A DNA stretch of 64,000 nucleotides. It comes from Phymorhynchus buccinoides. Lineage: Eukaryota; Mollusca; Gastropoda; Neogastropoda; Raphitomidae. Made by a program: the position numbers and the translations under genes. Under the pieces are notes generated by a model. It made no database searches. It was given only the letters and a program-made list of their open reading frames with translations, and was not told where the DNA came from. The stretch covers positions 32,197,483 through 32,261,482 of the forward strand of contig CM065690.1 of NCBI GenBank assembly GCA_017654935.2, in the 5' to 3' direction. This document shows positions 24,973 to 55,662 of this stretch, one piece after another. Position 1 is the first letter of the stretch; each line of letters opens with the position of its first letter.

Positions 24973-25568
24973 ATTCTGGCTCTGCTGACCACCTACATGG
25001 TGTTTGTGGACAGTGGTCAGGAAAGAGATGGGTTGACCCGTGTCCAACTGTCTGTGGTGTGTGCCGACAGATTCTGGCTCTGCTGACCACCTACATGGTG
25101 TTTGTGGACAGTGGTCAGGAAACAGATGGGTTGACCCTTGTCCAACTGTCTGTGGTGTGTGCCGACAGATTCTGGCTCTGCTGACCACCTACATGGTGTT
25201 TGTGGACAGTGGTCAGGAAACAGATGGGTTGACCCTTGTCCAACTGTCTGTGGTGTGTGCCGACAGATTCTGGCTCTGCTGACCACCTACATGGTGTTTG
25301 TGGACAGTGGTCAGGAAACAGATGGGTTGACCCTTGTCCAATTGTCTGTGGTGTGTGCCGACAGATTCTGGATCTGCTGACCACCTACATGGTGTTTGTG
25401 TACTGTGGTCAGGAAACAGATGGGTTGACCCTTGTTCTACTGTCTGTGTTGTGTGCTGACATATTCTGGCTCTGCTGACCACCTACATGGTGTTTGTGGA
25501 CTGTGGTCAGGAAACAGATGGGTTGACCCGCCTGTTGTGTACTGTCTGTGTTGTGTGCCGACAGACAA
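24973..25568 (+). repeat. 98-bp tandem array built on the receptor membrane exon
   Basis: Six units start at 24973, 25071, 25169, 25267, 25365 and 25463 with exact 98-bp spacing. Each opens with ATTCTGGCTCTGCTGACC, coding ILALLTTYMVFV, the second half of the transmembrane helix, in the phase left by the cap exon. Four units (25071, 25169, 25267, 25365) are preceded by GTGTGCCGACAG, a usable acceptor; at 24973 and 25463 the AG is lost. Since 98 is not a multiple of three, reading from one unit into the next shifts frame and stops soon (CADRFWLC then stop). Confidence 0.95.
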
Positions 25569-25846
25569 CATCTGGCTCTACTGACCACATTCATGGTGTC
25601 AGCGGAGCTGGACCCACATCAAGTATGTGTGGAACTTGATGCGGCGCCTGACGCATGCCATGCAGGAACGACTTCCGCAGAGACGTGTTCCTGGGTTATG
25701 CTGACGCTGACGCCTTCCTGGCCTGTGTGCACCTGCCCCGCTGTCTGCAGGGCCACGGCATCCGCTTCCTGCTGAGGGACCAGGAGGAGCTGCCGGGCTC
25801 CGTGAGGGCCGACAACATCGTGGACTTCATCGAGGACAGCTGGAAG
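25569..25846 (+). CDS. Toll-like receptor, membrane/juxtamembrane and first TIR exon
   Basis: It starts with a diverged seventh copy of the 98-bp unit (LALLTTFMV), continues as THIKYVWNLMRRLTHAMQ (basic juxtamembrane stretch) and then NDFRRDVFLGYADADAFLAC and HGIRFLLRDQEELPGSVRAD-NIVDFIEDSWK. DVFLGYAD is TIR box 1; RD-x-x-x-LPGS is the BB loop/box 2. The three parts lie in three different frames: +1 between MV and the THIKY part, and +1 between AMQ and NDF (removing one G at GCAGGAAC would restore it). Either two indels broke the gene, the assembly has errors, or an acceptor at CCATGCAG (25655-25672 region) is used with an exon I cannot place. It ends TGGAAG|gtcagt (phase 0), fitting the final exon. 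Confidence 0.8.
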
Positions 25847-28078
25847 GTCAGTGAGAATGAGAGCTAACAGTATAGGACAACATCGTGGACTTAATTGAGG
25901 ACAGCTGGAAGGTCAGTGAGAATGAGAGCTAACAGTATAGGACAACATCGTGGACTTCATTGAGGACAGCTGGAAGGTCAGTGAGAATGAGAGCTAACAG
26001 TATAGGACAACATCGTGGACTTCATCGAGGACAGCTGGAAGGTCAGTGAGAATGAGAGCTAACAGTATAGGACAACATCGTGGACTTCATTGAGGACAGC
26101 TGGAGTGAGGAGAGCTCAGTGAGAATGAGGAGCTAACAGTATAGGACAACATCGTGGACTTCATCGAGGACAGCTGGAAGGTCAGTGAGAATGAGAGCTA
26201 ACAGTATAGGACAACATCGTGGACTGGACTTCATGAGAATGAGAGCTGAGGACAGCTGGAAGGTCAGTGAGAATGAGAGCTAACAAGTATAGGACAACAT
26301 CGTGGACTTCATTGAGGACAGCTGGAAGTCAGTGAGGACTAACAGTATAGGACAACATCGTGGACTTCATCGAGGACAGCTGGAAGGTCAGTGAGAATGA
26401 GAGCTAACAGTATAGGACAACATCGTGGACTTCATCGAGGACAGCTGGAAGGTCAGTGAGAATGAGAGCTAACAGTATAGGACAACATCGTGGACTTCAT
26501 TGAGGACAGCTGGAAGGTCAGTGAGAATGAGAGCTAACAGTATAGGACAACATCGTGGACTTCATCGAGGACAGCTGGAAGGTCAGTGAGAATGAGAGCT
26601 AACAGTATAGGACAACATCGTGGACTTCATTGAGGACAGCTGGAAGGTCAGTGAGAATGAGAGCTAAGCTAACAGTATAGGACAACATCGTGGACTTCAT
26701 CGAGGACAGCTGGAAGGTCAGTGACTAACAGTATAGGACAACATCGTGGACTTCATTGAGGACAGCTGGAAGGTCAGTGAGAATGAGAGCTAACAGTATA
26801 GGACAACATCGTGGACTTCATTGAGGACAGCTGGAAGGTCAGTGAGAATGAGAGCTAACAGTATAGGACAACATCGTGGACTTCATTGAGGACAGCTGGA
26901 AGGTCAGTGAGAATGAGAGCTAACAGTATAGGACAACATCGTGGACTTCATTGAGGACAGCTGGAAGGTCAGTGAGAATGAGAGCTAACAGTATAGGACA
27001 ACATCGTGGACTTCATTGAGGACAGCTGGAAGGTCAGTGAGAATGAGAGCTAACAGTATAGGACAACATCGTGGACTTCATTGAGGACAGCTGGAAGGTC
27101 AGTGAGAATGAGAGCTAACAGTATAGGACAACATCGTGGACTTCATTGAGGACAGCTGGAAGGTCAGTGAGAATGAGAGCTAACAGTATAGGACAACATT
27201 CGTGGACTTCATCGAGGACAGCTGGTCAGTGAGAATGAGAGCTAACAGTATAGGACAACATCGTGGACTTCATTGAGGACAGCTGGAAGGTCAGTGAGAA
27301 TGAGTAGCTACTTCATCGAGGACAGCTGGTCATAGGACAACATCGTGGACTTCATTGAGGACAGCTGGAAGGTCAGTGAGAATGAGAGCTAACAGTATAG
27401 GACAACATCGTGGTCTTCATTGAGGACAGCTGGAAGGTCAGTGAGAATGAGAGCTAACAGTATAGGACAACATCGTGGACTTCATTGAGGACAGCTGGAA
27501 GGTCAGTGAGAATGAGAGCTAACAGTATAGGACAACATTGTGGACTTCATTGAGGACAGCTGGAAGGTCAGTGAGAATGAGAGCTAACAGTATAGGACAA
27601 CATCGTGGACTTCATTGAGGACAGCTGGAAGGTCAGTGAGAATGAGAGCTAACAGTATAGGACAACATCGTGGACTTCATTGAGGACAGCTGGTCAGTGA
27701 GAATGAGAGCTAACAGTATAGGACAACATCGTGGACTTCATCGAGGACAGCTGGAAGTGTCAGTGAGAGCTGAGAGCTAGGACAGTACTTCAGGGACAGT
27801 GGTGAGACTTCATTGAGGACAGCTGGAAGGTCAGTGAGAATGAGAGCTAACAGTATAGGACAACATCGTGGACTTCATTGAGGACAGCTGGAAGGTCAGT
27901 GAGAATGAGAGCTAACAGTATAGGACAACATCGTGGACTTCATTGAGGACAGCTGGAAGGTCAGTGAGAATGAGAGCTAACAGTATAGGACAACATCGTG
28001 GACTTCATCGAGGACAGCTGGAAGGTCAGTGAGAATGAGAGCTAACAGTATAGGACAACATTGTGGACTTCATCGACG
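25812..28078 (+). repeat. 65-bp tandem array from the TIR exon end plus splice donor
   Basis: The unit is the last 36 nt of the TIR exon (coding DNIVDFIEDSWK) plus 29 nt of intron: GTCAGTGAGAATGAG, AGCTAACAGTATAG. About 34 units follow the real exon end, mostly identical except ATCGAG/ATTGAG and some shortened units (26090-26340, 27200-27340, 27770-27800). Every full unit has AG before GACAAC and GT after TGGAAG, plus a branch-site-like GCTAAC. Confidence 0.97.
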
Positions 28079-30403
28079 GTATATATGATCCTTGGTCTTC
28101 TGCTAGGTGCTGTTACTGGTGAACATTATAAATGACCCTTGGTCTTCTTGCTAGGTGCTGTTACTGTGAACGTTATATAATGACCCTTGGACTTCCTGCT
28201 AAATGCTGTTAATGGTGAATGTTCCATGTGGTCCTTGGTCTTCTTGCTAGGTGATGGCAGATTGTGAGATTCACCGTCCTATTAGTTCTTGAAGACTTGG
28301 TCTTCCTGTAGATGAATATGAAGATGATATGATGATGATGAGACAGAAGTCGAGACGTGGCAGCCGTCGTGGATGATTCCATAAACGTTGCGGACCCTTG
28401 AACGTACGGGTTCGCTGTCTGGTTAGGCCTACTGGATCATTCGGATGGAGTTCGAGTCGAGGTGTTGTTTCTGTCCTTGATGCTGGAGGTGGAGTACGTC
28501 GAGTCAGCATCATGTCGTGGCAGGAGACGGTGAAGCATTGTGAGACAGCCCAAGGTTGTCGTTGGTCTCCTGTGGTCTCCTTGTGTTGATGTTGACGACA
28601 TTTGACCCTCACCAACACCAAATGTCGTCTTCAGGACCACTGAGCGACCTGCTACATACCGGGGTGCTAGTGTCGTCACACACGGGCAGAAGACATACAG
28701 TCAAGTCAAACAGTCTTTGCAGGCGGATGATTCCCTCCCATTAGATGGAACTGCAAATCCATCCACTGGGCACCGGCGGTCTTGTTGACTCAAAGGCCAA
28801 CACTGTAGAGATCCTCCAAGTCACTGTACGTCATCCTGTCCACAGGCTAGTTCATCAGCACCCATGGTGAGGGAGGTAGACTGTGTCGCCCTTTCTCCTA
28901 CTGTCTGCCAACCAATAGGACTTCGTGTACTGCCTCACACCCAGTACCCGGAATGATGAAAACGAAGACGAATGCTAGGTGCTGTTACTGGTGAACGTTA
29001 TATCTTACCCTTGGTCTTCCTTCTAGGTGCTGTTACTGGTGAACGTTATATCTTACCCTTAGTCTTCCTTCTAGGTGCTGTTACTGGTGAACGTTATATC
29101 TTACCCTTGGTCTTCCTTCTAGGTGCTGTTACTGGTGAACGTTATATCTTACCCTTGGTCTTCCTTCTAGGTGCTGTTACTGGTGAACGTTATATCTTAC
29201 CCTTGGTCTTCCTTCTAGGTGCTGTTACTGGTGAACGTTATATCTTACCCTTGGTCTTCCTTCTAGGTGCTGTTACTGGTGAACGTTATATCTTACCCTT
29301 GGTCTTCCTTCTAGGTGCTGTTACTGGTGAACGTTGTATATGACCCTTGGTCTTCTTGCTAGGTGCTGTTACTGGTGAACGTTATATATGACCCTTGGTC
29401 TTCTTGCTAGGTGCTGTTACTGGTGAACGTTATATATGACCCTTGGTCTTCTTGCTAGGTGCTGTTACTGGTGAACGTTGTATATGACCCTTGGTCTTCT
29501 TGCTAGGTGCTGTTACTGGTGAACGTTGTATATGACCCTTGGTCTTCTTGCTAGGTGCTGTTACTGGTGAACGTTATATATGACCCTTGGTCTTCTTGCT
29601 AGGTGCTGTTACTGGTGAACGTTGTATATGACCCTTGGTCTTCTTGCTAGGTGCTGTTACTGGTGAACGTTATATATGACCCTTGGTCTTCTTGCTAGGT
29701 GCTGTTACTGGTGAACGTTGTATATGACCCTTGGTCTTCTTGCTAGGTGCTGTTACTGGTGAACGTTATATATGACCCTTGGTCTTCTTGCTAGGTGCTG
29801 TTACTGGTGAACGTTATATCTTACCCTTGGTCTTCCTTCTAGGTGCTGTTACTGGTGAACGTTATATCTTACCCTTGGTCTTCCTTCTAGGTGCTGTTAC
29901 TGGTGAACGTTGGATATGACCCTTGGTCTTCCTTCTAGGTGCTGTTACTGGTGAACGTTATATCTTACCCTTGGTCTTCCTTCTAGGTGCTGTTACTGGT
30001 GAACGTTATATCATGACCCTTGGTCTTCCTTCTAGGTGCTGTTACTGATGAACGTTATATATGACCCTTGGTCTTCCTTCTAGGTGCTGTTACTGGTGAA
30101 CGTTGTGTATGACCCTTGGTCTTCTTGCTAGGTGCTGTTACTGGTGAACATTATATATGACCTTTGGTCTTCTTGCTAGGTGCTGTTACAGGTGAACGTA
30201 ATATATGACCCTTGGTCTTCTTGCTAGGTGCTGTTACCAGTGAACGTTGTATATGACCCTTGGTCTTCTTGCTGGTGAACGTTGTATATGACCCTTGGTT
30301 TTCCTGCCAGGTGTTGTTATTGGTGAACGTTATATATGACCCTTGGTCTTCTTGCTAGGTGCTGTTACTGGTGAACGTTATATATGACACTTGGTCTTGT
30401 CAG
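28079..30403 (+). repeat. 48-bp tandem array from the acceptor and start of the last TIR exon
   Basis: The unit is GTGCTGTTACTGGTGAACG-TTATATATGACC-CTTGGTCTTCTTGCTAG. The first 16 nt are a diverged copy of the last exon's start (GTGCTGTTGCTGGTGACG) and the end CTTCTTGCTAG copies its acceptor. About 30 units run from 28970 to 30403 and three more lie at 28095-28255. The array directly abuts the 65-bp array, so nearly all of this intron is exon-derived repeat. Variants are TATATC, TTGTATATG and CCTTCTAG. Confidence 0.97.
28262..28969. other. 700-bp non-repetitive insert inside the 48-bp array
   Basis: It is flanked on both sides by array units. No domain is recognised in any frame. ATTTGACCCTCACCAACACC-AAATGTCGTC is partly self-complementary. 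It is either an inserted mobile element without visible termini or a remnant of the original intron. Confidence 0.5.
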
Positions 30404-30667
30404 GTGCTGTTGCTGGTGACGCCGGCTTTCGCAGCCGACGACTGGTCCTGCGGCTTCACGGTGCACCAGGCTCAGTGCAGCATCACGGATCGGCTTCCTC
30501 ACCGCGTGCTGGTGGTGTTCATGGAGCAGCCCCACCTCCTGCCCCCCATGGCCTCCCTGGAGAGACTGCTGAGGCGCTACTCCGAGCGACGCGTGTTTCA
30601 CGTGCCCAGGGACGCCCCTGTCAACCACCCCGTGTGGGACCAGCTGGCTAGGGCTATTTTGGAGTGA
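30404..30667 (+). CDS. Toll-like receptor, final TIR exon
   Basis: The acceptor TTGTCAG at 30397-30403 is in phase 0 after TGGAAG. 87 residues follow: VLLLVTPAFAADDWSCGFTV (TIR strand betaC and helix, like LLVVSPAF), HRVLVVFMEQP and box 3-like PVWDQLARAILE before TGA at 30665-30667. Together with 25673-25846 it gives a TIR of near-normal length, so signalling residues are present apart from the upstream frame problem. TIR domains recruit MyD88-type adaptors; which adaptor is used here is unknown. The final 36 nt, stop included, are the seed of the array that follows. Confidence 0.92.
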   Translation: MLLLVTPAFAADDWSCGFTVHQAQCSITDRLPHRVLVVFMEQPHLLPPMASLERLLRRYSERRVFHVPRDAPVNHPVWDQLARAILE

Positions 30668-32935
30668 CTGTGGGACCAGCTGGCTAGGGCTATTGTGGAG
30701 TGACTGTGGGACCAGCTGGCTAGGGCTATTGTGGAGTGACTGTGGGACCAGCTGGCTAGGGCTATTGTGGAGTGACTGTGGGACCAGCTGGCTAGGGCTA
30801 TTGTGGAGTGACTGTGGGACCAGCTGGCTAGGGCTATTGTGGAGTGACTGTGGGACCAGCTGGCTAGGGCTATTGTGGAGTGAATGTGGGACCAGCTGGC
30901 TAGGGCTATTGTGGAGTGACTGTGGGACCAGCTGGCTAGGGCTATTGTGGAGTGACTGTGGGACCAGCAGCTGTGCTATGGGGGCTATTGTGGAGTGACT
31001 GTGGGACCAGCTGGCTAGGGCTATTGTGGAGTGACTGTGGGACCAGCTGGCTAGGGCTATTGTGGAGTGACTGTGGGACCAGCTGGCTAGGGCTATTGTG
31101 GAGTGACTGTGGGACCAGCTGGCTAGGGCTATTGTGGAGTGACTGTGGGACCAGCTGGCTAGGGCTATTGTGGAGTGACTGTGGGACCAGCTGGCTAGGG
31201 CTATTGTGGAGTGACTGTGGGACCAGCTGGCTAGGGCTATTGTGGAGTGACTGTGGGACCAGCTGGCTAGGGCTATTGTGGAGTGACTGTGGGACCAGCT
31301 GGCTAGGGCTATTGTGGAGTGACTGTGGGACCAGCTGGCTAGGGCTATTGTGGAGTGACTGTGGGACCAGCTGGCTAGGGCTATTGTGGAGTGACTGTGG
31401 GACCAGCTGGCTAGGGCTATTGTGGAGTGACTGTGGGACCAGCTGGCTAGGGCTATTGTGGAGTGACTGTGGGACCAGCTGGCTAGGGCTATTGTGGAGT
31501 GACTGTGGGACCAGCTGGCTAGTATTGTGGAGTGACTGTGGGACCAGCTGGCTAGGGCTATTGTGGAGTGACTGTGGGACCAGCTGGCTAGGGCTATTGT
31601 GGAGTGACTGTGGGACCAGCTGGCTAGGGCTATTGTGGAGTGACTGTGGGACCAGCTGGCTAGGGCTATTGTGGAGTGACTGTGGGACCAGCTGGCTAGG
31701 GCTATTGTGGAGTGACTGTGGGACCAGCTGGCTAGGGCTATTGTGGAGTGACTGTGGGACCAGCTGGCTAGGGCTATTGTGGAGTGACTGTGGGACCAGC
31801 TGGCTAGGGCTATTGTGGAGTGACTGTGGGACCAGCTGGCTAGGGCTATTGTGGAGTGACTGTGGGACCAGCTGGCTAGGGCTATTGTGGAGTGACTGTG
31901 GGACCAGCTGGCTAGGGCTATTGTGGAGTGACTGTGGGACCAGCTGGCTAGGGCTATTGTGGAGTGACTGTGGGACCAGCTGGCTAGGGCTATTGTGGAG
32001 TGACTGTGGGACCAGCTGGCTAGGGCTATTGTGGAGTGACTGTGGGACCAGCTGGCTAGGGCTATTGTGGAGTGATTGTGGGACCAGCTGGCTAGGGCTA
32101 TTGTGGAGTGACTGTGGGACCAGCTGGCTACCAGGGCTAGGGCTATTGTGGAGTGACTGTGGGACCAGCTGGCTAGGGCTATTGTGGAGTGAGTGACTGT
32201 GGGACCAGCTGGCTAGGGCTATTGTGGAGTGACTGTGGGACCAGCTGGCTAGGGCTATTGTGGAGTGACTGTGGGACCAGCTGGCTAGGGCTATTGTGGA
32301 GTGACTATTGTTGTGGAGTGACTGTGGGACCAGCTGGCTAGGGCTATTGTGGAGTGACTGTGGGACCAGCTGGCTAGGGCTATTGTGGAGTGACTGTGGG
32401 ACCAGCTGGCTAGGGCTATTGTGGAGTGACTGTGGGACCAGCTGGCTAGGGCTATTGTGGAGTGACTGTGGGATTGGCTAGGGCTATTGTGGAGTGACTG
32501 TGGGACCAGCTGGCTGGCTAGGGCTATTGTGGAGGAGTGACTGTGGGACCAGCTGGCTAGGGCTATTGTGGAGTGACTGTGGGACCAGCTGGCTAGGGCT
32601 ATTGTGGAGTGACTGTGGGACCAGCTGGCTAGGGCTATTGTGGACTGTGGGACCAGCTGGCTAGGGCTATTGTGGAGTGACTGTGGGACCAGCTGGCTAG
32701 GGCTATTGTGGCCAGCTGATAGGGCTTGTGGAGTGACTGTGGGACCAGCTACCTAGGGCTATTGTGGAGTGACTGTGGGACCAGCTGGCTAGGGCTATTG
32801 TGGAGTGACTGTGGGACCAACTGGCTACGCATAGGGCTATTGTGGAGTGACTGTGGGACCAGCTGGCTAGGCCTATATAGGGCTATTGTGGACTGTGGGA
32901 CCAACTGGCTAAGTATGTGCTGACTGTGGGACCAG
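30632..32935 (+). repeat. 36-bp tandem array from the last codons and stop
   Basis: Unit GACTGTGGGACCAGCTGGCT-AGGGCTATTGTGGAGT, a copy of the terminal WDQLARAILE-stop codons (GTGTGGGACCAGCTGGCTAG in the gene). About 60 units, very uniform, with irregular ones after 32280. As 36 is a multiple of three, every unit repeats the TGA in gene frame, while another frame is open for 414 codons (LWSDCGTSWLGL repeats) without being a gene. It would form the start of the 3' UTR. Confidence 0.97.
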
Positions 32936-33190
<255 letters not shown>

Positions 33191-35286: not shown

Positions 35287-35786
35287 NNNNNNNNNNNNNN
35301 NNNNNNNNNNNNNNNNNNNNNNNNNNNNNNNNNNNNNNNNNNNNNNNNNNNNNNNNNNNNNNNNNNNNNNNNNNNNNNNNNNNNNNNNNNNNNNNNNNNN
35401 NNNNNNNNNNNNNNNNNNNNNNNNNNNNNNNNNNNNNNNNNNNNNNNNNNNNNNNNNNNNNNNNNNNNNNNNNNNNNNNNNNNNNNNNNNNNNNNNNNNN
35501 NNNNNNNNNNNNNNNNNNNNNNNNNNNNNNNNNNNNNNNNNNNNNNNNNNNNNNNNNNNNNNNNNNNNNNNNNNNNNNNNNNNNNNNNNNNNNNNNNNNN
35601 NNNNNNNNNNNNNNNNNNNNNNNNNNNNNNNNNNNNNNNNNNNNNNNNNNNNNNNNNNNNNNNNNNNNNNNNNNNNNNNNNNNNNNNNNNNNNNNNNNNN
35701 NNNNNNNNNNNNNNNNNNNNNNNNNNNNNNNNNNNNNNNNNNNNNNNNNNNNNNNNNNNNNNNNNNNNNNNNNNNNNNNNNNNNNN
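35287..35786. other. Scaffold gap of exactly 500 N
   Basis: A round 500-base run of N is a conventional scaffolding gap, so order and distance across it are inferred by the assembler, not sequenced. Open frames drawn through it are meaningless. Confidence 0.99.
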
Positions 35787-36660: not shown

Positions 36661-36684
<24 letters not shown>

Positions 36685-36804: not shown

Positions 36805-36839
<35 letters not shown>

Positions 36840-39227: not shown

Positions 39228-39880
39228 CATAGTCTGTGTAATTTATGTAGGCCTGTATCAAATCGGAGATCACACACAGACACACATTTGACTGAACCCC
39301 CAAAAAAGTGTTGATTGCGGCCACACACAGCAAAAAAAACTTGTAAACACAAAAATCTCAGTATCTGTTTACCTTCATAGTCTGTGTAATTTATGTAGGC
39401 CTGTATCAAATCGGAGATCACACACAGACACACACTCGACTCAGACCGCAGCAAAGTCAAAAGTGTGTAACAAAATAAAGTGTTGATTGTGGTCATGCAC
39501 AGCAAAAAAAGTTAACACACAAAAATCCCAGTGTCTCTATACCTTCATAGCCTTTGTAACTTATGTAGGCCTGTATCAAATCGGAGATCACACACAGACA
39601 CACACTCGACTGACCGCAGAAAAGTCAAAAGTGTGTAACAAAATAAAGTATTGATTGTGGTCATGCACAGCAAAAAAGTTGTAAACACAAAACTCCCAGT
39701 GCCTCTTTTTCTTCATACAATCGTAGTCTTCATAATTCATGTACGGTAGGCCCAAACTGGAGATCACACACAAACACACACACTTGACTGACTGCAGCAA
39801 AGTCAAGAGTGTGTAACAAAATAATCAAAGCGTGGATTGTGGCCTCGCACAGCAAATAAGAGGTTGTAAACACAAATGAC
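39228..39880 (-). repeat. Four-copy tandem repeat of 150-180 bp with splice-donor-like edge
   Basis: The word AGGCCTGTATCAAATCGGAG sits at 39250, 39398 and 39568, with a diverged fourth copy near 39750. On the minus strand each unit reads ATCTCCGATTTGATACAGG, then TATGAAG|GTAAAA, GTAAAC or GTATAG in three units. CGGTCAG or AGTCAG precedes it. This looks like an exon with a donor, amplified as in the other arrays, and it lies where later CNK exons could be, but the peptide (DLIQAYINYTDYEG) is not one I can place. Confidence 0.6.
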
Positions 39881-42340: not shown

Positions 42341-42959
42341 AACACATGAGAATACAGTTATACATACTCTCTCACTGGGTGGCATTTTAGGGTTACAGGA
42401 TCCGATTACTGGTGATTTGATATGAACAGTGGAATTGATAGTCCTATGGGCCAATGGAAAACGTAATTGCATATCAACCAAACAGCATTGGGAAGGATAG
42501 TTGATGATTTGAAAAACCACACACAACACGCTCGCGCGCACGCCCCCACGCACGGCACACTCACACACACACCCCACACACTACAACACACAACATATAA
42601 ATGAGAAACACAATCAATGACATAAACATTTTACAAATTGAAGATTCTTCAAACCAATCATACAAACACTAAGAGATGAATACTTCTCCCCAAAGCAAAC
42701 ACAAATAGTGGATTATTAAAAAAATTTAAATTAAGTGAGCAACAATCTCTATAATTGCACTACAGTGCACACAATAAGCAACAAAAAACACACCAAAACA
42801 CAGACACTCTCTTTTGGTAATGCACATACTCTCCCCAGGCCCAAACATAATAACAATACTACCATCACCATCACAAGAACATCAACAAAATACACACTCT
42901 CCTCCCCAGCAGCCAACAACAAGCAGCAACAACAGAAAAACAACAGCTAAAACAACAAC

Positions 42960-43497
42960 AACAACAACAAGTGCAACGCCGAGCGGGCTGCAAAGTCACC
43001 CCTCAGCAGCATCGCCGAGCTACTCCAAAATCGGAATATGTCGGCTGTACACATACATAAAAACGCATCAAAACAGCACGTAACTACATAAAAACGCATG
43101 AAAAACGAAGCAACGAAACCGAATAGTTTTATATATATATATAGCCTTAGGGTTCGGACCCGTGAATTGAGCAGTGCGCGATCATGCGCACACGAAAAAT
43201 TCATGACAACTGTGTTATAGACCATTCATCTAGAAATGTTGTGAAAAAAACTGCATTGAAATTAAGTGCAAAACTTCGCGAGATTATTAGCGATTATGTG
43301 TTTCGGGGTTGAACCCCGTAACTGGCGCGACCTTGACCTTAATGTAAAACTAAATAAATCAGTGGATAGCTTGCATTTTGGCAAACTAGTATACCAAATT
43401 TGATGATGATAGAGTGAATAGTTTTTGAGAAAAACGGACGAATAGCCGGCCGGCCGGACGGACAGAGGCACGCCGGATCCTTCGGCTCAGGGACTAA
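42960..43497. repeat. Dispersed repeat R2, copy 2
   Basis: It matches 37498-38097, with a shorter C-run and a shorter GGACGGACAC-type tail. It begins after a CAA/ACA-rich run at 42840-42970. Confidence 0.9.
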
Positions 43498-43499
43498 CA

Positions 43500-44626
43500 A
43501 CATGCACACTCACTTGGTAATGCAACAGATACAACCACCAAAAAACCCCAAGCAACAACTACAACAACTCATCACAACGATCAACAACAACAACAAACAC
43601 CATCCTCTCCTCACTATCACAACGACAAAATGCAAGCTCACTTAGTGATCAATCATAACACTCAACAACCGACACAAGCACAAATAAGGAACCATACTTT
43701 ATGAACTATAAGGCGACACTTTTTTCCCCAGACTGAGACCCCTGCACCTTACAATATGACGTAATAATATAGTGAGAAAATATAGTAACATAATCTGAAT
43801 TTTGTGTAAAACTTGGGGGAGGGCGTCTTCTTATACGATGCACTTTGTAGTCCGTAAAATATGATTAACAAAATTAAATACAGCTACATTAACAAACATA
43901 AGAAACAAACACAATGCACACTTGTTCTGGCAAAACCACAAGCAACAACAACAATAACAAACAACATAAACACTCATGTGATCAGCTGACATAACCACAA
44001 ACAACAATAACTACAACATCAAACAACAGCAAACACAGACACTCACATAGATCAACTGACACACCACAAACAACAACAGCTACAACAACAAAACGCCCAC
44101 TCACTTGGTGATGTACACACTCTCAACAACAATATCAAACAACAACAACAAAACGCCTACTCACTTGGTGATGTACACACTCTCAACAATATCAAACAAT
44201 CTGCGACTTGAACAAGCCGGGGTGTAGCTGCGAATTGGGATTCGGAATGAGCGGCGTGGGAGCAACGCCACTGTACAACCCAGAAGATGGGACAGCAAAA
44301 AAAACACCAAACAATATCAAACAACAACAAAGACACTCACATAGTCAGCTGACACACCCAACAAACAACAACAAAATGCCCACTCACTTAGTAATGTACA
44401 CACTCTCAACAATAATATCAAACAACAGCTACAACAACAAAACGCCCACTCACTAGGTGATGTACACACTCTCAACAACAATACCAAACAACAACACACA
44501 CTCACATAGTCAGCTGATACAACCACAAAACAACAACAACAACAACAACATCTACAACAACAAAAGGCCCACTCACTTGGTGACGTATACACTCTCAACA
44601 AAAATCAAACAACACAGACACTCACA
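43500..44626 (-). repeat. Array of the CNK exon 47026-47303 donor edge
   Basis: The genuine exon end reads on the minus strand GAGTGTGTATGTCACCAA|GTGAGTGAGCG. The same words (plus strand CACTCACTTGGTGATGTACA, CACTCTC) recur near 44100, 44160, 44383 (TTAGTAATG), 44449 (CTAGGTGATG) and 44572, with a decayed one at 43508. ACATAGTCAGCTGACAC and CAA-rich filler lie between. The array resumes at 46970 after the inserted DNA element and runs into the real exon. Confidence 0.85.
43690..43866. mobile_element. Short DNA element with ACTATAAGGCG-type ends
   Basis: Ends ATGAACTATAAGGCGACAC and GTAGTCCGTAAAATATG are inverted and related to the ends of 44629-46967 and 54065-54944. The interior (GACTGAGACCCCTGCACC, AATATAGTGAGAAAATATAG) matches parts of 54840-54910 inverted. 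Confidence 0.65.
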
Positions 44627-44628
44627 TA

Positions 44629-46967
44629 CCGTAAAATGCGGACTATAAGCCGCTACTTTTCCCCCTCAACTTTGGCCCATGCGGCTTATAGACTGATGCG
44701 GCTTATCTGTGGATTTTTTTCCATTCTGCATTTGAGCAATTCTCAAAAGGTCGTTGCTAACAACCCTTGCCCCGTTATCTTGTCAATTCTCTATTAAATA
44801 CTTATTATTTGGAAATTGTTGCAGCAATCCTGGATGTTTTGAGAGATACATAAGATAAAAATGTTGATGTGAAGAACCACATATAGAAATAATCAAGGAA
44901 TATTTACATTTTTTATGTGTGAATTTTCATTTGCAAATAGGACATTTGATGGGTGTATGTTCTTGATGTGTATTAAAAGACTTGTTGAACATAGCTGAAC
45001 TGCTTGTTTGTTTTAACTGTTTAAGGACATAATAAAAAAATGTTTTCTGACACAAAACTGTTATCTGTTTTTCATCTTTGTGTGAAAAAAATCTATCTGA
45101 AAATCTGTTTGTCAGTTGCGACAGCCTTCGTCCTCACAATGATCAATGAAACACAATGCTCTGAATGTATTCTACACAGCTAGTGCAGTACCTCACAGCG
45201 ATCAATGAAACACAATGCTCTGAATGTATTCTACACAGCTAGTGCAGTAAACTCACCTTGAAACGACTAAAGAACACATTCGGTGCATTATTATGCCGAA
45301 AATTAATCAACTGGACAATTCATTTGCTTAACCCTTTCGCCGCCAGCCAATTTTCATCCAAAAAAATACCATTAAACTTAACTGGCTAGAGAAGAACAAA
45401 AAACATCTGCAATATTGTGAATTCCTCTCTGACATGTATGACAATAGACCTATCCTTACCTCCCAAAAGTTAAGAAGTAGGGTCTTTGGATAACAGGCCC
45501 TCATTGGATGTCTTTTAGTGACATAGGTGGTAAACCATTGTGGTGCATCAATGGATTTTGGCGGTGAAAGGGTTAAAAAAAAGCAATTTCCAGCATGCAG
45601 TTCTCGTTTTCGTCCATTTGTCACAATCAATAATTTTGGTGTTTCACACTCGCAACTGAACGTAGCTATTCGACTTTCGGCCATTTCATCAGCAGAAAGT
45701 CTCGCGAGAACATCACGTGACTGCTCTACTTGAAAATGGCGGATTTCAGGCGCGAAGGCATGATTATTACTTTCGTCCTTTCTTCAGACAATGTCGCAAT
45801 CAACAATTTGTGTCACAACAAACCCAAAACACCCCCAGTACAAGTAAAAAAACAATAGATTAGTTGCTGATTGTAGTTCAGTTACACGCAATTGATATAA
45901 AGGTAAAATGGCATGTTGTTTTGTCAGTGGTTTCTTACCACACCTGTAACACTGAATATAAAAGTGTTTACTTGGATGAAAGTTGATTTTGCGTCCTTGT
46001 CACAACCGAAAGCTGACATAAGTATTGCATTCTTCCTACAAGTGATCGGTGTGCCGATAATTCTGGTGATTGAGCATTGTATTGGAGATAAATTCTGTTG
46101 TATTTTCATGGACTCTGGCTGCTTGCATGACGACACCAAGCACTGAATTATGTGGACGAAGTTTTGTCCGTGTCACAAACGACATGAAATTTCAATTTAT
46201 GTGTCCCAAAAATTCTATAAAGAAGGGATTCAGTCTAATTCTTCACTATTCATGTTATTGAAAGCCAAGTGAATCCTATCGGATATCAATCTTTGTCTGC
46301 ATCACAACATTCTTCAGAATATAATTTTTTCTGTCAATTTGCTCTGTTACATGCACCTATTTTGAAAAAAAAAGATAGCTGTGAACATTTTGCTTAATTT
46401 TCACATTAAACATATCTTTTTCTGTGTTGTTTGTGTGAGAATTAATGTTGTTTGGAAATTGTATTCGTCATTGTATGCTGTTTATGACTGAATTTTGTCC
46501 GTTGCTTTTGTATCACAACCAACACACATTAATGTTACAAAAGGAAACAGTCTTTATTGAGATGAGTGTAGATTCTTTACAATGAAACTAGATACCCCTG
46601 AAATAAGAATAATGGCATAAGAATATTTGTCTGTTGAATATTGACTTCACAGGAACATTTTTAACTTCTGGTGTATGTTGCGCGTGACAATGGACGAAAC
46701 AAACAGGTTTAAAAAACAAATTTACGAACCAAATAAATAACCTTTTGATTATTTTTTCAAACAAATTTGCCAGGATCTAATTAAATGTGTCTGAGAACAA
46801 TACTTATGCTCTGATAGAATTTATATATTTATGTTGGTTTGTGCACATACAATTTTCTCTGCGGCTTATAAACTGGTGCGGCTTATATGTGAATAAATAC
46901 CTAATATTTTGTCAATTTAAGGGATGCAGCTTATATACAGGTGCGTCTTATAGTCCAGTTTTTACGG
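44629..46967. mobile_element. 2.34-kb DNA transposon with TA target duplication
   Basis: Terminal inverted repeats start CCGTAAAATGCGGACTATAA and end GTCTTATAGTCCAGTTTTTACGG. TA flanks both sides, and the uninterrupted target CTCACATAGTCAGCTGAC exists nearby at 44338-44355, which proves the insertion point and the 2-bp duplication. Internal GCGGCTTAT repeats occur at both ends. No transposase is recognised in its short frames. The tandem CACAATGCTCTGAATGTATT duplicate lies at 45152-45248. Confidence 0.85.
45332..45572 (-). mobile_element. piggyBac-type MITE M1, copy 2 (nested)
   Basis: It is bounded by TTAA at 45328-45331 and 45573-45576, with ends CCCTTTCGCCGCCAGCC and TTTTGGCGGTGAAAGGG. 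The body matches 5740-5977 inverted (AGTGACATAGGTGGTAAA, GACAATAGACCTATCCTTAC). It is inserted in the 2.34-kb DNA element. Confidence 0.92.
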
Positions 46968-47025
46968 TAGTCAGCTGACACCCCCAACAAACAACAACAG
47001 CTACAACAACAAAACGCTCACTCAC

Positions 47026-47303
47026 TTGGTGACATACACACTCTCCCCCGCAGCAGAAACCACCACAAACTCCTGCAGCAAGGGCCTGCCCTGCTTGTTC
47101 AAGCTGTCCCCTTCCCGGGAGCGGCGCTTCTTCAGAGACTTGGGCAAGGTGACCGCCTGCTGAGCGTGCTTGGCCGCCAGCTTCTTGTGGTTCTGCATGG
47201 CCCCCAAAGGGTTAATGTGCCGCGGGCGTTTTTTCAGAAGCAGGGTCACCTCCTTGGGTTTGTCCTTGAGAATCTTCACCAGCTCTTTCAGCTGCCAGCC
47301 CAG
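47026..47303 (-). CDS. CNK scaffold homologue, exon with PDZ end and basic linker
   Basis: The acceptor CTCCCTTGCAG precedes LGWQLKELVKILKDKPKEVT-LLLKKRP, the last helix and strand of the PDZ domain, which aligns with VGWQLKNLV...LKKRP of vertebrate CNKSR2/3. A lysine/arginine-rich linker follows (PKSLKKRRSREGDSL, EFVVVSAAGESVYVT). It begins in phase 0 and ends ACCAA|gtgagt in phase 2. Later CNK exons (PH domain) are not identified in the window. Its donor edge has been amplified downstream (43500-44626, 46970-47025). Confidence 0.88.
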
Positions 47304-47403: not shown

Positions 47404-47973
47404 ACTAAATCAAATACATAAATGCGGTTTTTTTGTGAATAGTATTTTCTCCATTTGTTGTACAAGATATCCTGAACACAAAAAATCTGATTAATTTCAA
47501 TCTTAAGCGTAAAAAAACACAAAACAACACATAGTGATAATAGTAATTAAAAAACCCCATAACCATCAGTATCACCATATTTTTTGGGCTGTTATTTTTT
47601 ACATCTTTATTTGTTGTTGCTGTTGTTTTCTTACAGTCATCATCATCATCAGTAACATCATCATCATCAGTAACATCATCATCATCAGTCATTAACATCA
47701 TCATCATCATCAGTATCAGTAACATCATCATCATCAGTAACATCATCATCAGTAATCATCATCATCATCATTAGTAACATCATCATCATCAGTAACATCA
47801 TCATCATCATCATCAGTAACATCATCATCATCATCATCAGAAATCATCATCATCATCATAGAATCATCATCATCATCATCATAACATCATCATCATCATC
47901 ATCATCATATCATCATCATCATCATCAGTAACATCATCAGTAACATCATCAGTAACATCATCATCATCAGTAA

Positions 47974-48005
<32 letters not shown>

Positions 48006-48240
48006 GTAACATCATCATCATCAGTAACATCATCATCATCATCAACATCATCAGTAACATCATCATCATCATCATCAGTAACATCATCATCATCATCATC
48101 ATCAGTAACATCATCATCATCATCAGTAACATCATCATCATCAGTAACATCATCATCATCATCAGTAACATCATCATCATCATCATCATCAGTAACATCA
48201 TCAGTATCATCATCAGTAACATCATCACATCACTATCATC
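47404..48240. repeat. (ATC)n repeat with AGTAAC interruptions in a CNK intron
   Basis: From 47638 to 48240 ATC trinucleotides are broken at irregular intervals by AGTAAC, giving a compound repeat. The minus frames of poly-Met or poly-Asp are not coding. 47404-47637 is AT-rich and unremarkable. Confidence 0.95.
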
Positions 48241-48262
48241 GTCATCTTACATCTACACATAC

Positions 48263-50170: not shown

Positions 50171-50325
50171 AACATTCTACAGAGAGGGACAGAAAGAAAA
50201 TGATTACGCTCATCAGAGACAGAGAGAAACAAAGAAAGAAAATGAACATAGTTATCAAAGCGATACACATAATAACTAAACAGAGAGAGACAGAAAGAGT
50301 CTAAAAATAACAAACACAGGGCCTT

Positions 50326-50764
50326 CATAGTACTCTATCAGCATGCCACACTGCGACAGTCATCATCATCATCATCATCATCATCATCAGCTGGTGTTCT
50401 GGACCAGCCCTTCACAGTACTCTATCAGCGTGCCACACTGCGACAGTCATCATCATCATCATCATTGTCATCGTCATCATCATCAGCTGGTGTTCTGGAC
50501 CAGCCCTTCATAGTACTCTATCAGCATGCCACACTGCGACAGTCATCATCATCATCATCATCAGCTGGTGTTCTGGACCAGCCCTTCATAGTACTCTATC
50601 AGCACGCCACACTGCGACAGTCATCATCATCATCATCAGCAGCTGGTGTTCTGGACCAGCCCTTCACAGTACTCTATCAGCATGCCACACTGCGACAGTC
50701 ATCATCATCATCATCAGCTGGTGTTCTGGACCAGCCCTTCACAGTACTCTATCAGCGTGACACA
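50326..50764 (-). repeat. Six-copy array of a CRIC-domain exon of CNK
   Basis: Each unit reads on the minus strand GACTGTCGCAG, then TGTGGCACGCTGATAGAG-TACTGTGAAGGGCTGG-TCCAGAACACCAG, then a variable (TGA)n run. Units start (minus) near 50764, 50694, 50622, 50556, 50447 and 50380; the last is cut short. The unit codes C-x-TLIEYCEGLVQNTS behind an intact acceptor. Confidence 0.9.
50718..50764 (-). CDS. CNK homologue, end of CRIC domain (one of six near-identical copies)
   Basis: The first copy in gene order reads CVTLIEYCEGLVQNTS after TACTATCGCAG. Joined in phase 0 to the preceding exon (...PEGAIKKS), the spacing from LGLELVTVTQ to this peptide equals that in vertebrate CNKSR2 up to KTLVGVCDHI, so at least one copy is the true exon. 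No good donor follows; candidates are GGGCTG|gtccag or a donor lost in this copy. Which of the six copies is spliced cannot be told. Confidence 0.55.
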
Positions 50765-51007
50765 CTGCGATAGTACGAATAGTGTTGTTTGTTATGTAGG
50801 AGGGAGTAAGTGTAATTTGCATTACCCAACAAAACATTTTTTTGTTGATGTTGAAGTTATATTCGTTGCTTGTTTGTGGTCATGTCTACTGCATTACCAA
50901 GTGAGTGTCAGTGGTGTTGTTGTTGTTGCTTGTGATGTGTACGTACCATAGCGAGTGAGCGTGTTGTTGCTTTGATTGCATAGGTGCTAGGTAGTATTGC
51001 TGTTTGT

Positions 51008-51160
51008 TAAATCAAAGGCAGAGTCAAAGCGAGAGATAGATACGAGGAAGTTGCTAGCATAGAACTTCAAGAGAGTGGAGGAAATATTTGTAGTGAAAGA
51101 CTCCCCCCAAGCCCCCCCCTCCCCCGACCTACCCCCCACCCTCAGTGTCTCCATTGTTCA
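51008..51160 (+). mobile_element. Fragment of element D1
   Basis: CAAAGGCAGAGTCAAAG, GAGGAAGTTGCTAGCATAGA and ACTTCAAGAGAGTGGAGG match 53555-53615, ending in a C-rich part beside the next exon's donor. Confidence 0.75.
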
Positions 51161-51168
51161 ATACTTAC

Positions 51169-51298
51169 TGATTTCTTGATGGCTCCTTCGGGGTCCACAC
51201 ATGCTGATTCTCTCTGCGTCACCGTCACCAGTTCCAAGCCCAGCTTCACCACGGCGTTACGCAGTCGGCAAATGTCGTAGATCCCTTCAAACGGGGCT
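51169..51298 (-). CDS. CNK homologue, CRIC exon 2
   Basis: Acceptor ATGACTGCCAG; the leading A completes AGA (Arg) from the previous exon, giving WLDR-APFEGIYDICRLRNAV and VKLGLELVTVTQRESACVDP-EGAIKKS. It aligns with the second half of the CRIC domain (WLDRSPF ... LCLELTT). It ends AAATCA|gtaagt in phase 0. CRIC is a conserved region of CNK proteins of scaffold function. Confidence 0.92.
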
Positions 51299-52593
51299 CT
51301 GGCAGTCATATAATCGTAAGAATTATACACTCAGCCAAATAGAGTAGCAAATAATGCAAACTTATTACATAGGCAAACACTCCTGTTCTTTACTAACCTG
51401 ACTTACCATAAAAAGAAGACACTTGCATATTTTTCTGTTGTTGGGTTTTCTTTGTTAGTTTTTTAGTTGTTTTTGTTTGTTTTTGTTTGTTTGTTTGTTT
51501 GTTTTTCTTATCAGCAGAGCACAATCTTCAAATGACATACATGTACTCCTATAACATATAATATGGCTGCCTAAAAGGAGAAGAAGAAGATAAATAATAC
51601 AAGATCAATTTTAAGAACTTAAATGACCTGGGTTTGATACACCTCTGCACATTTCCACACCAAAAATTAAATTGCACAACACATCCCTCAACAATCTCCG
51701 CTGCCTAGATTTTCATTGTGGGTTTTTTCTTCTTCTAGCTGTTGTGTACTGTGGCAAGCTTCTTTTTTTTAAATTCAAATGCGATGAGAAAAATACTGAA
51801 CAAAAGTTATTCTGTTTAAACACCACAAGGCAATTCACATTATTAGATGTTAGATAAAACATTGCTTACTCACAGAGACAGACAGACCAACAGATAAACA
51901 ACAAGGACAAAAAAACCCATCTCAGCGGAGCCAACAACAACAACAACAAAAGTGCAGATGTGGTCACTTTCTGTTACGTCAAGCCACCTTCTTTGACTAC
52001 AAGTTGTCTACAAGTATACTTTGTCATTCCGCTAGACTCGTTTGGCTAAAATCTGTCTGTATCATAAGAGTTGCCTAAACATCTGTCTATCATGTAAGTT
52101 TGGAGAAAAGCATGGAAAAAGAGCAGTTGTATCACGAAATATCTGCTAAAATAAACATTCCTTACAGGTATTTCCACTTGTGGTCTGTTTTTTTAAAGTT
52201 CTGCTATATATATGTAAATTCAATAAAAAAGAAAAACAAAGTAGAAGTTCAGTACCAAACATTGATCGCTAAATACACAAAATGAAAAAAAGAAACACAT
52301 TTCCCGATCAACACGTTTTCAAGTAACCAAGAACACGCGACATATTGAAATACACGAAGTAAGGACTTAAAAAAAAATGATGCAACATGTAAGTTATGTA
52401 CAAGTTAAGCTTATTGAGCTACACGTTGTCCTCCATACCAAAGTAGATGCGTAAACTTGCTGGACTACCAATACTTGTAACTACAGACATGAGATCAGAG
52501 GAAAGTAAAATTTCCTGAAAAATTACTGGGAGCCGGTGTAGGCCCCTGGTTGTCCTAGAAAATCCTGATCCTGATCCAAGAAATTAACTTTAA
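51299..52593. other. CNK intron, no feature recognised
   Basis: AT-rich with TTTG repeats at 51475-51500 and short CAA/GAA runs. No coding sequence. Confidence 0.5.
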
Positions 52594-52825
52594 CCCTTTC
52601 ATCGCCACTGTCGCCTCTTGGCACCACAATGATTTAACACCCATGTTACTGAAAGGCATCAAATGAGGGTCTGGTATCCAGTGACCTTATGTTCTTAATT
52701 TTAGGAGGTAATGATAGGCCATATTTTATGCAGAGGAATCCCCAGTATTGCAGACAAAATCTTTTCTCTACCCAGGTAAGATTAATGGTACATTTTGGCT
52801 GAGGAATGGCTAGCGTTGAAGTGGC
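52594..52825 (+). mobile_element. piggyBac-type MITE M1, copy 3 (right end decayed)
   Basis: TTAA at 52590-52593, then CCCTTTCATCGCCACTGTCG and the M1 body (AAAGGCATCAAATGAGGGTC, CTCTACCCAGGTAAGATTAA). The right terminus is degenerate (AGCGTTGAAG) and lacks TTAA, so this is the oldest of the three. Confidence 0.85.
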
Positions 52826-53321
52826 TGTTGGAAGTGGGCTTCATCTGAATGGGATGAATATGCTGGATTGGCTTGTGGATTTGAGTGGCAACTGAGGCAT
52901 GATTGCTTCGTTCATGCTTCCATCAGCCACTCCCAGTCTACACCTCCCCCCCTCCCCATTTCTCAATGGATTTACACTGAACTCAAGAACAGCCCTGCTG
53001 GCATAAACATTTCCTGAAATCATGAAATTTGAAAAATCTCATGTCTGAACTACCAGCTAAACTTAGTTGTGTACCACATAACCAGCCGTCTGCTTTGGCA
53101 GGAGCCCAGATGTGCATGAAACTCAAGATCATCTTGCTAAGTGGTCGTGTCTAGCATGGAAACTTAGTGGAAGTGATGATCAGAAAAGGGTAGTGAGTGA
53201 TCATAGAAACAACATCCTTGCCACGTGTTGATGCCGGGAGAGATAACTTAGCAACAGAGCCTGAGGATTCATGCGCGTGTGGGCTCCCAATCATAAAACG
53301 TGAACTTTATTCTAATAGAAC
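52826..53321. other. CNK intron, nothing recognised
   Basis: No domain, splice-flanked frame or repeat with a second copy in the window. Confidence 0.5.
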
Positions 53322-53768
53322 ATCTTCTTCTTCTTCTTCTGCGTACCCAGGCCATATGGCCATAATGGGTAAGGTAGTGTCCGTTTTTCAGTTTTCAGTG
53401 GTCTCCCCGCTGCATACAGCCGACACATTCCGATTTCGGAGGAGCTCAAAGGAGAAAAATTATTTAGAAGATTTTTTTTTTTAAAGGCAGGAGAATATAG
53501 CCAATAAGTCAGAAAGATAGTAGATGATAGAAAACAAAGGGAAAAGGCAGAGTCAAAGAGAGTGACAGATTAGAGGAAGTTACAAGCATGGAACTTCAAG
53601 AAGGTGGGGGGGGACTATTTTTAAGAAAGACCCTCCCCCCCCGGTATCCCCACGGGGAGAGACTCGTGGAGTGGGTGGGGTCATCCAGCTCCCTGTATGG
53701 AGGCATGAGGCATCTACCCACCCACTGCCCCAGAACAGACCATCAAAGACAGAAAGGATCCTCCAGAC
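53322..53768 (+). mobile_element. CTT-tipped dispersed element D1, second long copy
   Basis: Starts (CTTCTT)n-CTGCGTACCCAGG and runs through GCATACAGCCGACACATTC, AGATAGTAGATGATAGAAA, GGGGAGAGACTCGTGGAG to AGACAGAAAGGATCCTCC. It ends against the CRIC exon donor, so the distal CTT end is missing. It lies in opposite orientation to 8811-9301. Confidence 0.8.
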
Positions 53769-53992
53769 CTGTCCAGCCAGGACACGAGGTTCTTGAGGGT
53801 GGTCAGCAGGTCAGCCACGTAGGACAGCACGGTGATGGACAGGCGGCGCCGGTGGAGCTCCCCGTAGCGCAGGTTGGCGCGGTTCGGGTCATTCTCCCCT
53901 TGCCGCAGCTGGATCTCGGCCACCACGTTGCGCGCCTTGCACCCCAGCTGGAGGGCCATGGACTGTAGGTTTTCCGTGTCCAGCGTGTACCG
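53769..53992 (-). CDS. CNK homologue, CRIC exon 1
   Basis: After GTCTGCCTGACAG: RYTLDTENLQSMALQLGCKA, RNVVAEIQLRQGEND, YGELHRRRLSITVLSYVADL and LTTLKNLVSWLDR. TENL...L...V-DL-x-x-x-K-LVSWLDR is the first half of the CRIC domain. Phase 0 from the SAM exon; it ends GGACAG|gtctgg in phase 2 and joins 51298 exactly. The donor GTCTGG is weak, which is odd for an exon of a conserved gene. Confidence 0.93.
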
Positions 53993-54120
53993 CTGTCAGG
54001 CAGACCCCCAAACACTGTCTGTCACTCTTTGTCACGCCTCTGTGATATGTCTGTTCCAAGCATGTACCGTCTTTTTCGGACAATAAGACGCACCTTTGTA
54101 TACTATAAGGCGTTTTTTTT

Positions 54121-54228
54121 AAAAAGGCAGAAGATTTATAGCCAATAAGTCAGTAAGATAGTAGATGATAGAAAGCAAAGGGAAAAGGCAGAGTCAAAGA
54201 GAGTGACAGATTAGAGGAAGTTACAAAA
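54121..54228 (+). mobile_element. Fragment of element D1
   Basis: AAAAAGGCAGAAGATTTATAG, AGATAGTAGATGATAGAAAG and GAGGAAGTTACAA match the centre of 53322-53768. Confidence 0.85.
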
Positions 54229-54231
54229 ATA

Positions 54232-54815
54232 CAGTCGACCCCCTCATGACCGGCCCTCTGATTTACGACTTCCTCTCTTTTAAGACCGAAATATGAATGA
54301 CGGATCGTTTTTCTTCAAAACTTGCCTCCTCATTTACGACTCCCCCTCTAACGCGTTTTACGACCGTAAATCTTGTTGATTTTACGACCGATGCAACACA
54401 TTCTGACAATTATCAGTCGCAAAAACGTATGATATCTATCCTTCTCGGCCTCAGTTCGAGCCGACACACAGCTGGGGTACCACTGTTGTTAGTCAATGTC
54501 AATCTCGCGAGGGTCCAATCTCGCGAGGGTCCGATCTCGCAACATTTCTCTGCGCTAATTCAAGCCGCGCTACTCCGGATGTTTCATTCAAGAATGGCGG
54601 AGAAAGCACAGTGTAGCGATGTGGGTAAAAAAAGGAAACGTGTGACGCTCACTCTTGAGCAAAGGGTGAAAGTAGTGAGGAGACATATGCTTGTGCTGTG
54701 CGTCATATACGGTGTAGTGAGTGCATTGTTTTGGTCACCCCTGATTTAAGACCCCCCTCTTTTACGACCAATTTTTCAAGATTTTTTGAACGGTCTTAAA
54801 AGAGGGGGTCGACTG
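54232..54815 (+). mobile_element. pogo/Tigger-like element, internally deleted
   Basis: The ends CAGTCGACCCCCTCATGACC and AAGAGGGGGTCGACTG are inverted and TA lies on both sides (54230-54231, 54816-54817): Tc1/mariner superfamily. An ATG at 54594 opens MAEKAQCSDVG then KKRKRVTLTLEQRVKVVRR, the start of a CENP-B-type helix-turn-helix as in pogo transposases; the frame stops at 54749, so the catalytic DDE part is deleted. Confidence 0.85.
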
Positions 54816-55249
54816 TATTACCAAATATTACCCAGAATTCAGATTTTGTCACTATATTTTCTTACTATTTCATCAGTCACATTATAAGGCGCAGGGATCT
54901 GAGTCTTGGAAAAAAGTATCGCCTTATAGTCCGAAAAATATGGTGGGTCTACTGGGGTTTTAATTTAAAAGGCTTTGGTTTCGCGCAAGATCCAAAATCT
55001 ACAAGAAAACAAGACTGCTGGCTTCATACAAGATCTGAAGTCTGTAAGAAAACAGATTGTCTGAAACCATTGAAAAGAAGATAAAACTTGTAATAATACA
55101 TCAGTGAAAATTCGTAATCCTTAAACACAGAAATTTGACAGTCTACATGATCAAAAACAGCTTGTATCACCACCAGCTCTGCTTGTGCAATATATATCAA
55201 CAATATAATCAATGTTGTTATCATCACCATCATCATCATCACCATTCTC

Positions 55250-55498
55250 ACAAGGGATCATAGCAGATCTACAGCGTCCAGTACAGTTCCTGGTGGCCCA
55301 GCTTAGTGATGTCCAGATTTTAATATCATCACCATCATCATTATCATCACCATCATCATCACTACCATCACCATCTCACCAACGATCTTAGGAGGTCGAC
55401 AGCCTCTAGCACCAGCTCCTGGTGACCCAGCTTGGTGATCAATGTCCACACCATCATCATCACCATCATCATCACTACCATCACCATCATCATCTCAC
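55250..55498 (-). repeat. Two extra copies of the CNK SAM exon donor edge
   Basis: On the minus strand 55447-55378 repeats the exon end (AGCTGGGTCACCAGGAGCTG, GACCTCCTAAGATCGTTG|GTGAG) almost exactly, and 55310-55245 is a more decayed copy (AAGCTGGGCCACCAGGAACT ... CTTGTGAG). (ATC)n runs separate them. Both copies retain GTGAG after the exon-like sequence. Confidence 0.93.
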
Positions 55499-55662
55499 CA
55501 ATGATCTTAGGAGGTCGACAGCCTCCAGCACCAGCTCCTGGTGACCCAGCTTGGTGACGCCCATCTTCTCCAGGTCAGCGTGGTTCAGCATCAGCAGCCT
55601 CCTGCCATCCACCTCGTTCATCTGGAACAGCGCCACATACTGGGCCACGGACTCGTCCAGCC
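55499..55662 (-). CDS. CNK scaffold homologue, SAM-domain exon
   Basis: CNK (connector enhancer of KSR) proteins are scaffolds of the Ras-RAF-MAPK cascade at the membrane, with SAM, CRIC, PDZ and PH domains. This is the most 5' exon found. After TGCTGTGTGACAG it reads GLDESVAQYVALFQMNEVDG, RRLLMLNHADLEKMGVTKLG and HQELVLEAVDLLRSL, the SAM domain without its first helix; L-x-x-LGV-x-x-x-GHQE-x-x-LEAV-LL matches vertebrate CNKSR2 closely. It starts by completing a Gly codon (phase 1 entry) and ends TCATTG|gtgaga in phase 0, joining RYTLDTEN at 53992. The exon with the initiator and first SAM helix must lie above 55662 or beyond the window. Confidence 0.94.

Follow-up and report, generated by a model that had tools for sequence, protein, structure and literature searches.

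Tandem arrays built on exon edges in a Toll-like receptor gene and a CNK gene of the gastropod Phymorhynchus buccinoides

Within a window of 64,000 nucleotides from the neogastropod Phymorhynchus buccinoides (assembly GCA_017654935.2, contig CM065690.1, positions 32,197,483 to 32,261,482; coordinates below are those of the window), two genes, one coding for a Toll-like receptor (TLR, plus strand) and one for a connector enhancer of KSR (CNK, minus strand), carry tandem arrays whose units include edges of their own exons. Seven of the 23 exon edges examined are amplified, four in TLR and three in CNK, as the first-pass annotation of this DNA had described and as exon placement by tblastn and a copy search bear out. 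We consider it probable that these arrays are minisatellites of the type named mirages in amphioxus, i.e., local tandem duplications over exon edges, later expanded, of which the outermost edge is still usable. This account is supported by the inclusion of the edges and the geometry of the arrays, by blocks of shared variants, by the decay of copies at CNK exon 2, by a mobile element that arrived late and by in-frame stops, as well as by the matching anatomy, together with regular splicing, reported from amphioxus (PMC3087553).

Exon edges and the arrays that include them

Exons were placed by tblastn with proteins from five relatives (two CNK, three TLR), and splice sites were then read off. 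For each edge, copies that span it were sought on the same strand and at a distance of up to 6 kb; the set consists of 20 edges plus the CNK exon 5 acceptor and the two edges of CNK exon 1 at its right-hand location, the latter two added because this exon had first been placed on its copy at the left end of the window, where one query overran the window. Copy counts take in the authentic edge, except for CNK exon 8, where they are counted beyond the exon, and all of them come from one assembly. The exons, the arrays and two insertions within arrays are as follows.

21753-23833, 24439-24679, ~25561-25846 and 30404-30667, plus strand: TLR exons, the last closing with TGA (tblastn and splice sites)
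59432-59360, 55662-55499 and 53992-53769, minus strand: first three CNK exons (tblastn and splice sites)
51298-51169, 49772-49713, 48331-48263 and 47303-47026, minus strand: further CNK exons (tblastn and splice sites)
24922..25599, plus strand: 98-bp array at the TLR exon 3 acceptor and exon start, the transmembrane part (TRF, edge copies)
25811..28073, plus strand: 65-bp array at the TLR exon 3 donor, 34 copies (TRF, copy search)
28076..30419, plus strand: 48-bp array at the TLR exon 4 acceptor, 3+29 copies (TRF, copy search)
28245..28972, no strand assigned: non-repeat insert of ~728 bp within the 48-bp array, between two copies of TGCTAGGTG (sequence)
30633..32886, plus strand: 36-bp array at the TLR exon 4 stop codon, 61 copies (TRF, copy search)
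55237..55556, minus strand: 119-bp array at the CNK exon 2 donor, 3 copies (TRF, copy search)
50299..50773, minus strand: 78-bp array at the CNK exon 5 acceptor, 5 copies plus a truncated one (TRF, tblastn, copy search)
42794..47045, minus strand: array at the end of CNK exon 8, unit of ~123 bp (edge copies)
44627..46969, no strand assigned: element of 2,343 bp with inverted ends (TACCGTAAAA) and TA on both sides (sequence)

Every array unit includes the edge of a homology-supported exon. Six of the arrays lie on splice-type edges, namely the acceptors of TLR exon 3, TLR exon 4 and CNK exon 5 and the donors of TLR exon 3, CNK exon 2 and CNK exon 8, and the seventh lies on a stop codon. The outermost copy is the one that adjoins the exon body, i.e., the first in the donor and stop arrays and the last where the array lies on the TLR exon 4 acceptor, and the surplus copies are situated on the non-coding side of the exon. 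The first array begins at 24922 and not, as annotated before, at 24973.

In the TLR gene, the 98-bp array comprises six full copies and a partial one, and the match to the TLR of Nucella falls in the divergent last copy (25566-25601). The 65-bp unit consists of the final 36 nt of exon 3 (12 codons) and the opening 29 nt of the intron with the donor; the first copy is the authentic one, 14 of the 34 copies are identical to the consensus, and the motif CTAAC is kept in 32. In the 48-bp unit, 32 nt from the very end of the intron, acceptor included, are joined to the 16 nt that start exon 4, and here the last copy is authentic. The 65-bp array stops in the middle of a unit and the 48-bp array starts within 3 bp of it, so that 84% of the intron between exons 3 and 4 (25847-30403, 4,557 bp) consists of array and the rest of the ~728-bp insert. 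The 36-bp unit, formed by the final 35 coding nt of exon 4 including TGA and 1 nt beyond, contains no splice site, and with 61 copies, 47 of them identical to the consensus, it forms the largest array by copy number. Its authentic first copy departs from the majority sequence at a single site; the last copies of the 48-bp array also differ from their majority, while the authentic copy of the 65-bp array matches a common variant.

Since splice signals persist in many copies, 29 of the 34 copies of the 65-bp unit having the donor string AAGGTCAGT and 30 of the 32 copies of the 48-bp unit the acceptor string AGGTGCTG, one might think that the copies are in use as tandem splice sites or mini-exons, serving regulation or protein diversity. 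Formally, the 65-bp unit can even be read as 36 nt in frame and then a 29-nt stretch of the form GT..CTAAC..AG, and among 27 copies of the 48-bp unit the exon part is less variable (2 of 16 sites) than the intron part (12 of 32 sites). However, animal introns are usually longer than 29 nt, the latter contrast stems mainly from a few linked variants in the intron part, and no such contrast exists in the 65-bp array, whose exon and intron parts are equally variable (0.58 versus 0.52 differences per site, 32 copies). Moreover, an exon read onward into the neighbouring copy runs into an in-frame stop in both the 65-bp and the 48-bp array, the two that were checked. We therefore regard a use of the copies as very unlikely.

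In the CNK gene, the 119-bp unit contains the final 58 nt of exon 2, the donor and ATG-rich intron sequence. Identity of the three copies drops with increasing distance from the exon (1.00, 0.96 and 0.79), the third copy being decayed; the copies read ITK/DITK, the exon itself reads GVTK, and Nucella has DIHK. The 78-bp unit is composed of the acceptor, the first 48 nt of exon 5 and a GAT tract. The repeat at exon 8 carries 20 exon nt and is present beyond the exon in five clear (0.83-0.92) and three weak copies (0.68-0.71), with five further low-scoring rows left out of the count. The edge of exon 8 is ambiguous, offering a donor (AA|GTGAGT) and an in-frame TGA stop; the CNK proteins of Nucella, Plakobranchus and Biomphalaria terminate at this residue, and that of Bulinus goes on. 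The 2,343-bp element sits at a TA in the first exon 8 unit, and its flanks, once joined, match another unit over 95 columns (86%). The exon 8 array is therefore older than the insertion of the element.

A weak inverted match to the exon 8 edge is found in another CNK intron (50892-50923; 81% over 32 nt, E 0.017). A GAT/ATG microsatellite of ~600 bp (47637-48246) begins ~17 bp past the donor of CNK exon 7, and ATG tracts like those of this microsatellite are also present in the units repeated at exons 2 and 5.

History and origin of the arrays

The 48-bp array has its variants grouped in blocks, and the copies of the 65- and 36-bp units are irregularly spaced, features that are compatible with slippage and unequal exchange. 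Together, the variant blocks, the decay at CNK exon 2 and the element inside the exon 8 array indicate that these arrays are real DNA with a history, and we consider it highly improbable that they are artefacts of assembly. Such a suspicion might be raised because the sequence comes from a single assembly, with a gap of 500 N, because frame breaks adjoin the 98-bp array and the remainder of CNK exon 5 is missing next to its own array, and because a chimeric peptide made of the array frames matched none of the 7,998 protein-database candidates scored at E 0.01; one amphioxus mirage was likewise aberrantly assembled in a draft genome (PMC3087553). In contrast, an artefact would have to account for seven unrelated units, for variants shared in blocks, for irregular spacings, for decayed copies similar to another snail's exon and for a mobile element inside one array. 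The arrays show an independent internal history, although copy numbers may be wrong.

Under the mirage-type account, some 36-125 bp of repeat-rich DNA would be duplicated in tandem by slippage during replication or by template switching, and such a duplication would by chance cover an exon edge. Splicing would go on using the outermost edge, and for this reason the extra copies would become intron or 3' flank without doing harm. The arrays would then be expanded and homogenised through slippage and unequal exchange, whereas isolated copies would decay and be invaded by mobile elements.

Some observations weigh against this account. The use of the outermost edge in splicing is inferred from sequence. 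Next to their arrays, the frame of TLR exon 3 and CNK exon 5 itself are irregular, so that tolerance of the array is an assumption for these two exons. In the 65- and 48-bp arrays identity does not change with distance from the exon, and more arrays stand at exon edges than pure chance would lead one to expect (see below). Outward growth of the arrays, starting at the exon, was considered and rejected, as the relation between identity and distance is flat in the 65-bp array (rho -0.06, 34 copies) and in the 48-bp array (rho 0.00, with only 20 copies passing when the authentic unit served as query); the 36-bp array displays a weak trend (rho -0.37, p 0.003).

The first-pass annotation knew of no described system of this kind, a view that the literature contradicts. 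Tandem repeats spanning exon-intron boundaries have been named mirages in amphioxus Adh3. In the amphioxus globin genes BflGb6 and BflGb9 both types of boundary are repeated, RT-PCR indicates regular splicing, and BflGb6 haplotypes have 6 and 3 repeat units (PMC3087553). Repeats of amphioxus PGBD5 overlap splice sites, and troponin C is mentioned in the same context (PMC3902484). In humans, variable minisatellites at exon-intron boundaries, some of them making new introns, were reported as differences between recent paralogues, with units of 30 bp on average repeated four times and with transcript evidence (De Grassi and Ciccarelli, 2009; PMC2812944). The annotation was right to compare the arrays with the tandem-duplication model of intron gain, a parallel that the amphioxus authors draw as well (PMC3087553); this model goes back to Rogers (1989, cited in PMC3087553), and a potato RdRp gene provides a case (PMC4974935).

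The snail arrays share the anatomy of mirages. Units span the boundary in both, donor and acceptor sides are affected, and many but not all copies retain AG/GT; in amphioxus mirages the interior copies are homogenised and the boundary copies are exempt from this. The snail arrays differ in occurring in a mollusc, in reaching 61 copies versus the 6 and 3 of BflGb6, in including a stop-codon array and in an intron made of the arrays of both its own edges. With the human boundary repeats they have in common the expansion of a minisatellite at an exon-intron boundary. With intron gain by tandem duplication they share a duplicated stretch that includes splice signals, but in the snail it is existing introns, and one 3' end, that have become longer. 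Among the open-licence literature matches listed, no title or abstract opening names arrays of this kind in a mollusc, and a tandem-repeat survey of Daphnia (PMC3152781), searched for terms on boundaries and splicing, yielded nothing relevant. As far as these matches show, the mollusc host, the 61 copies, the stop-codon edge and the intron built from both edges are new. Exon-edge minisatellites are thereby extended from lancelets to a mollusc, at copy numbers far above the lancelet globin case, and the locus lends itself to tracing how introns grow through tandem duplication, from young through homogenised to decaying arrays. Exon-edge duplications matter as one proposed source of new introns.

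The excess of arrays at exon edges

For the statistics, arrays were taken from those of 104 TRF rows that had a period of at least 30, overlaps being merged by hand and simple repeats (e.g., 61690-61768) dropped; the copies at CNK exon 8 entered as one array. When arrays collapsed to one unit were placed at random within the window, 7 of the 12 non-microsatellite arrays stood at an edge versus 0.38 expected (P 1.2e-8). When collapsed arrays were confined to the gene spans, with placements touching non-coding DNA, the count was 7 of 9 versus 1.6 expected (P 6e-5; a simpler formula for the gene-limited null gave 2.6e-5), and each gene contributed, TLR with 4 of 4 (1.1 expected by chance; P 0.005) and CNK with 3 of 5 (P 0.007). 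The joint P of 6e-5 weakens to 1e-3 without the CNK exon 5 array, to 4e-3 if the stop-codon array is omitted as well, and to 1.1e-4 if two CNK arrays of period 20-30 are added. For TLR alone P becomes 0.05 if ancestral non-coding DNA measured only 500 bp, and under the crudest null, in which arrays were slid at their current full length, 4.1 of 12 were expected (P 0.03). An edge excess in these two genes is thus likely, but it is modest and was recognised post hoc in a single window picked as striking. The proposal that arrays overlap exon edges more often than random placement would allow holds for the two genes, with the qualification that part of the excess is due to short introns. The excess would be explained in part by introns that were already short before the arrays grew and in part by other causes.

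Two of the arrays counted as non-edge deserve mention. One has a 32-bp unit in ~37 copies (61886-63070), lies upstream of CNK and touches no annotated edge. The other, of 170 bp x3.3 (39305-39876), contains a piece that looks like an exon, QAYINYTDYEG with GT after it; the array was considered as an eighth edge array and set aside, because tblastn with 84 CNK homologues yielded no match there.

A process targeting AG|GT junctions, as had been suggested for this locus, is not supported, because at each of the six splice-type edges the unit ends within the exon, 16-58 nt away from the junction, the 36-bp array lies on a stop codon devoid of a splice site, and 16 of the 23 edges have no copies nearby. 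A mutational process that favours exon edges in a broader sense, for example through DNA damage coupled to transcription or splicing or through nucleosome phasing on exons, would fit the excess within the gene spans, in both genes taken singly. The same off-junction breakpoints, the stop-codon edge devoid of a splice site and the untouched edges speak against it, as do the post hoc nature of the comparison and the sensitivity of P to doubtful edges and to the assumed length of ancestral non-coding DNA, and we hold such a preference to be unlikely. No unit is unusually foldable either: hairpin-prone units were considered as a cause and discarded, the seven units, folded as DNA, giving z values of -0.95 to 1.62 versus shuffles, none of them notable. 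A bolder version, with odds well against it in our judgement, would be that caenogastropods possess a recurrent edge-biased duplication, independent of gene function, which builds tens of splice-site copies and thereby introns made of the edges of their own exons. If this were true and common to lancelets, edge-biased duplication would be a convergent and general route of intron lengthening and sometimes of intron origin.

The two genes and other features of the window

The plus-strand gene is identified as a TLR by leucine-rich repeats (Pfam E 4e-71), its closest protein being TLR4 of Babylonia areolata (63% over the query), and the minus-strand gene as CNK by SAM and CRIC domains, its closest protein being that of Nucella lapillus (85%). 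Both of these species are neogastropods, and the matches thus point to a caenogastropod, probably a neogastropod, as the source of the window. Close locus numbers of the matching genes in Nucella (021694 and 021690) suggest that the order of TLR and CNK is shared with that snail. At E 0.001, Pfam returned no family for short TLR exon 2, TIR-a, TIR-b, CNK exon 4 or exon 8, pieces that were identified by tblastn.

Compared with Babylonia and Nucella, the frame of TLR exon 3 is disturbed at ~25566-25655, beside the 98-bp array; exons 1, 2 and 4 are open. CNK exon 5 is visible only as its first 48 nt within the array copies, and its remainder, present in Nucella, found no convincing match within the window beside 50299-50773. 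Both irregularities might reflect either imperfect assembly beside the arrays or damaged copies. The single assembly gap in the window, 500 N, is located at 35287-35786.

CNK exon 1 and its upstream DNA are present twice, 59.3 kb apart (1-531 and 59344-59892), with 3 mismatches and 18 gap columns over 549 columns, the similarity stopping at a CT tract; this doubling represents either a recent duplication or an unmerged haplotype. A reading frame for a reverse transcriptase (RVT_1, E 1e-32) is situated at 16266-17543, and a 45-bp unit occurs twice nearby, at 19665-19754.

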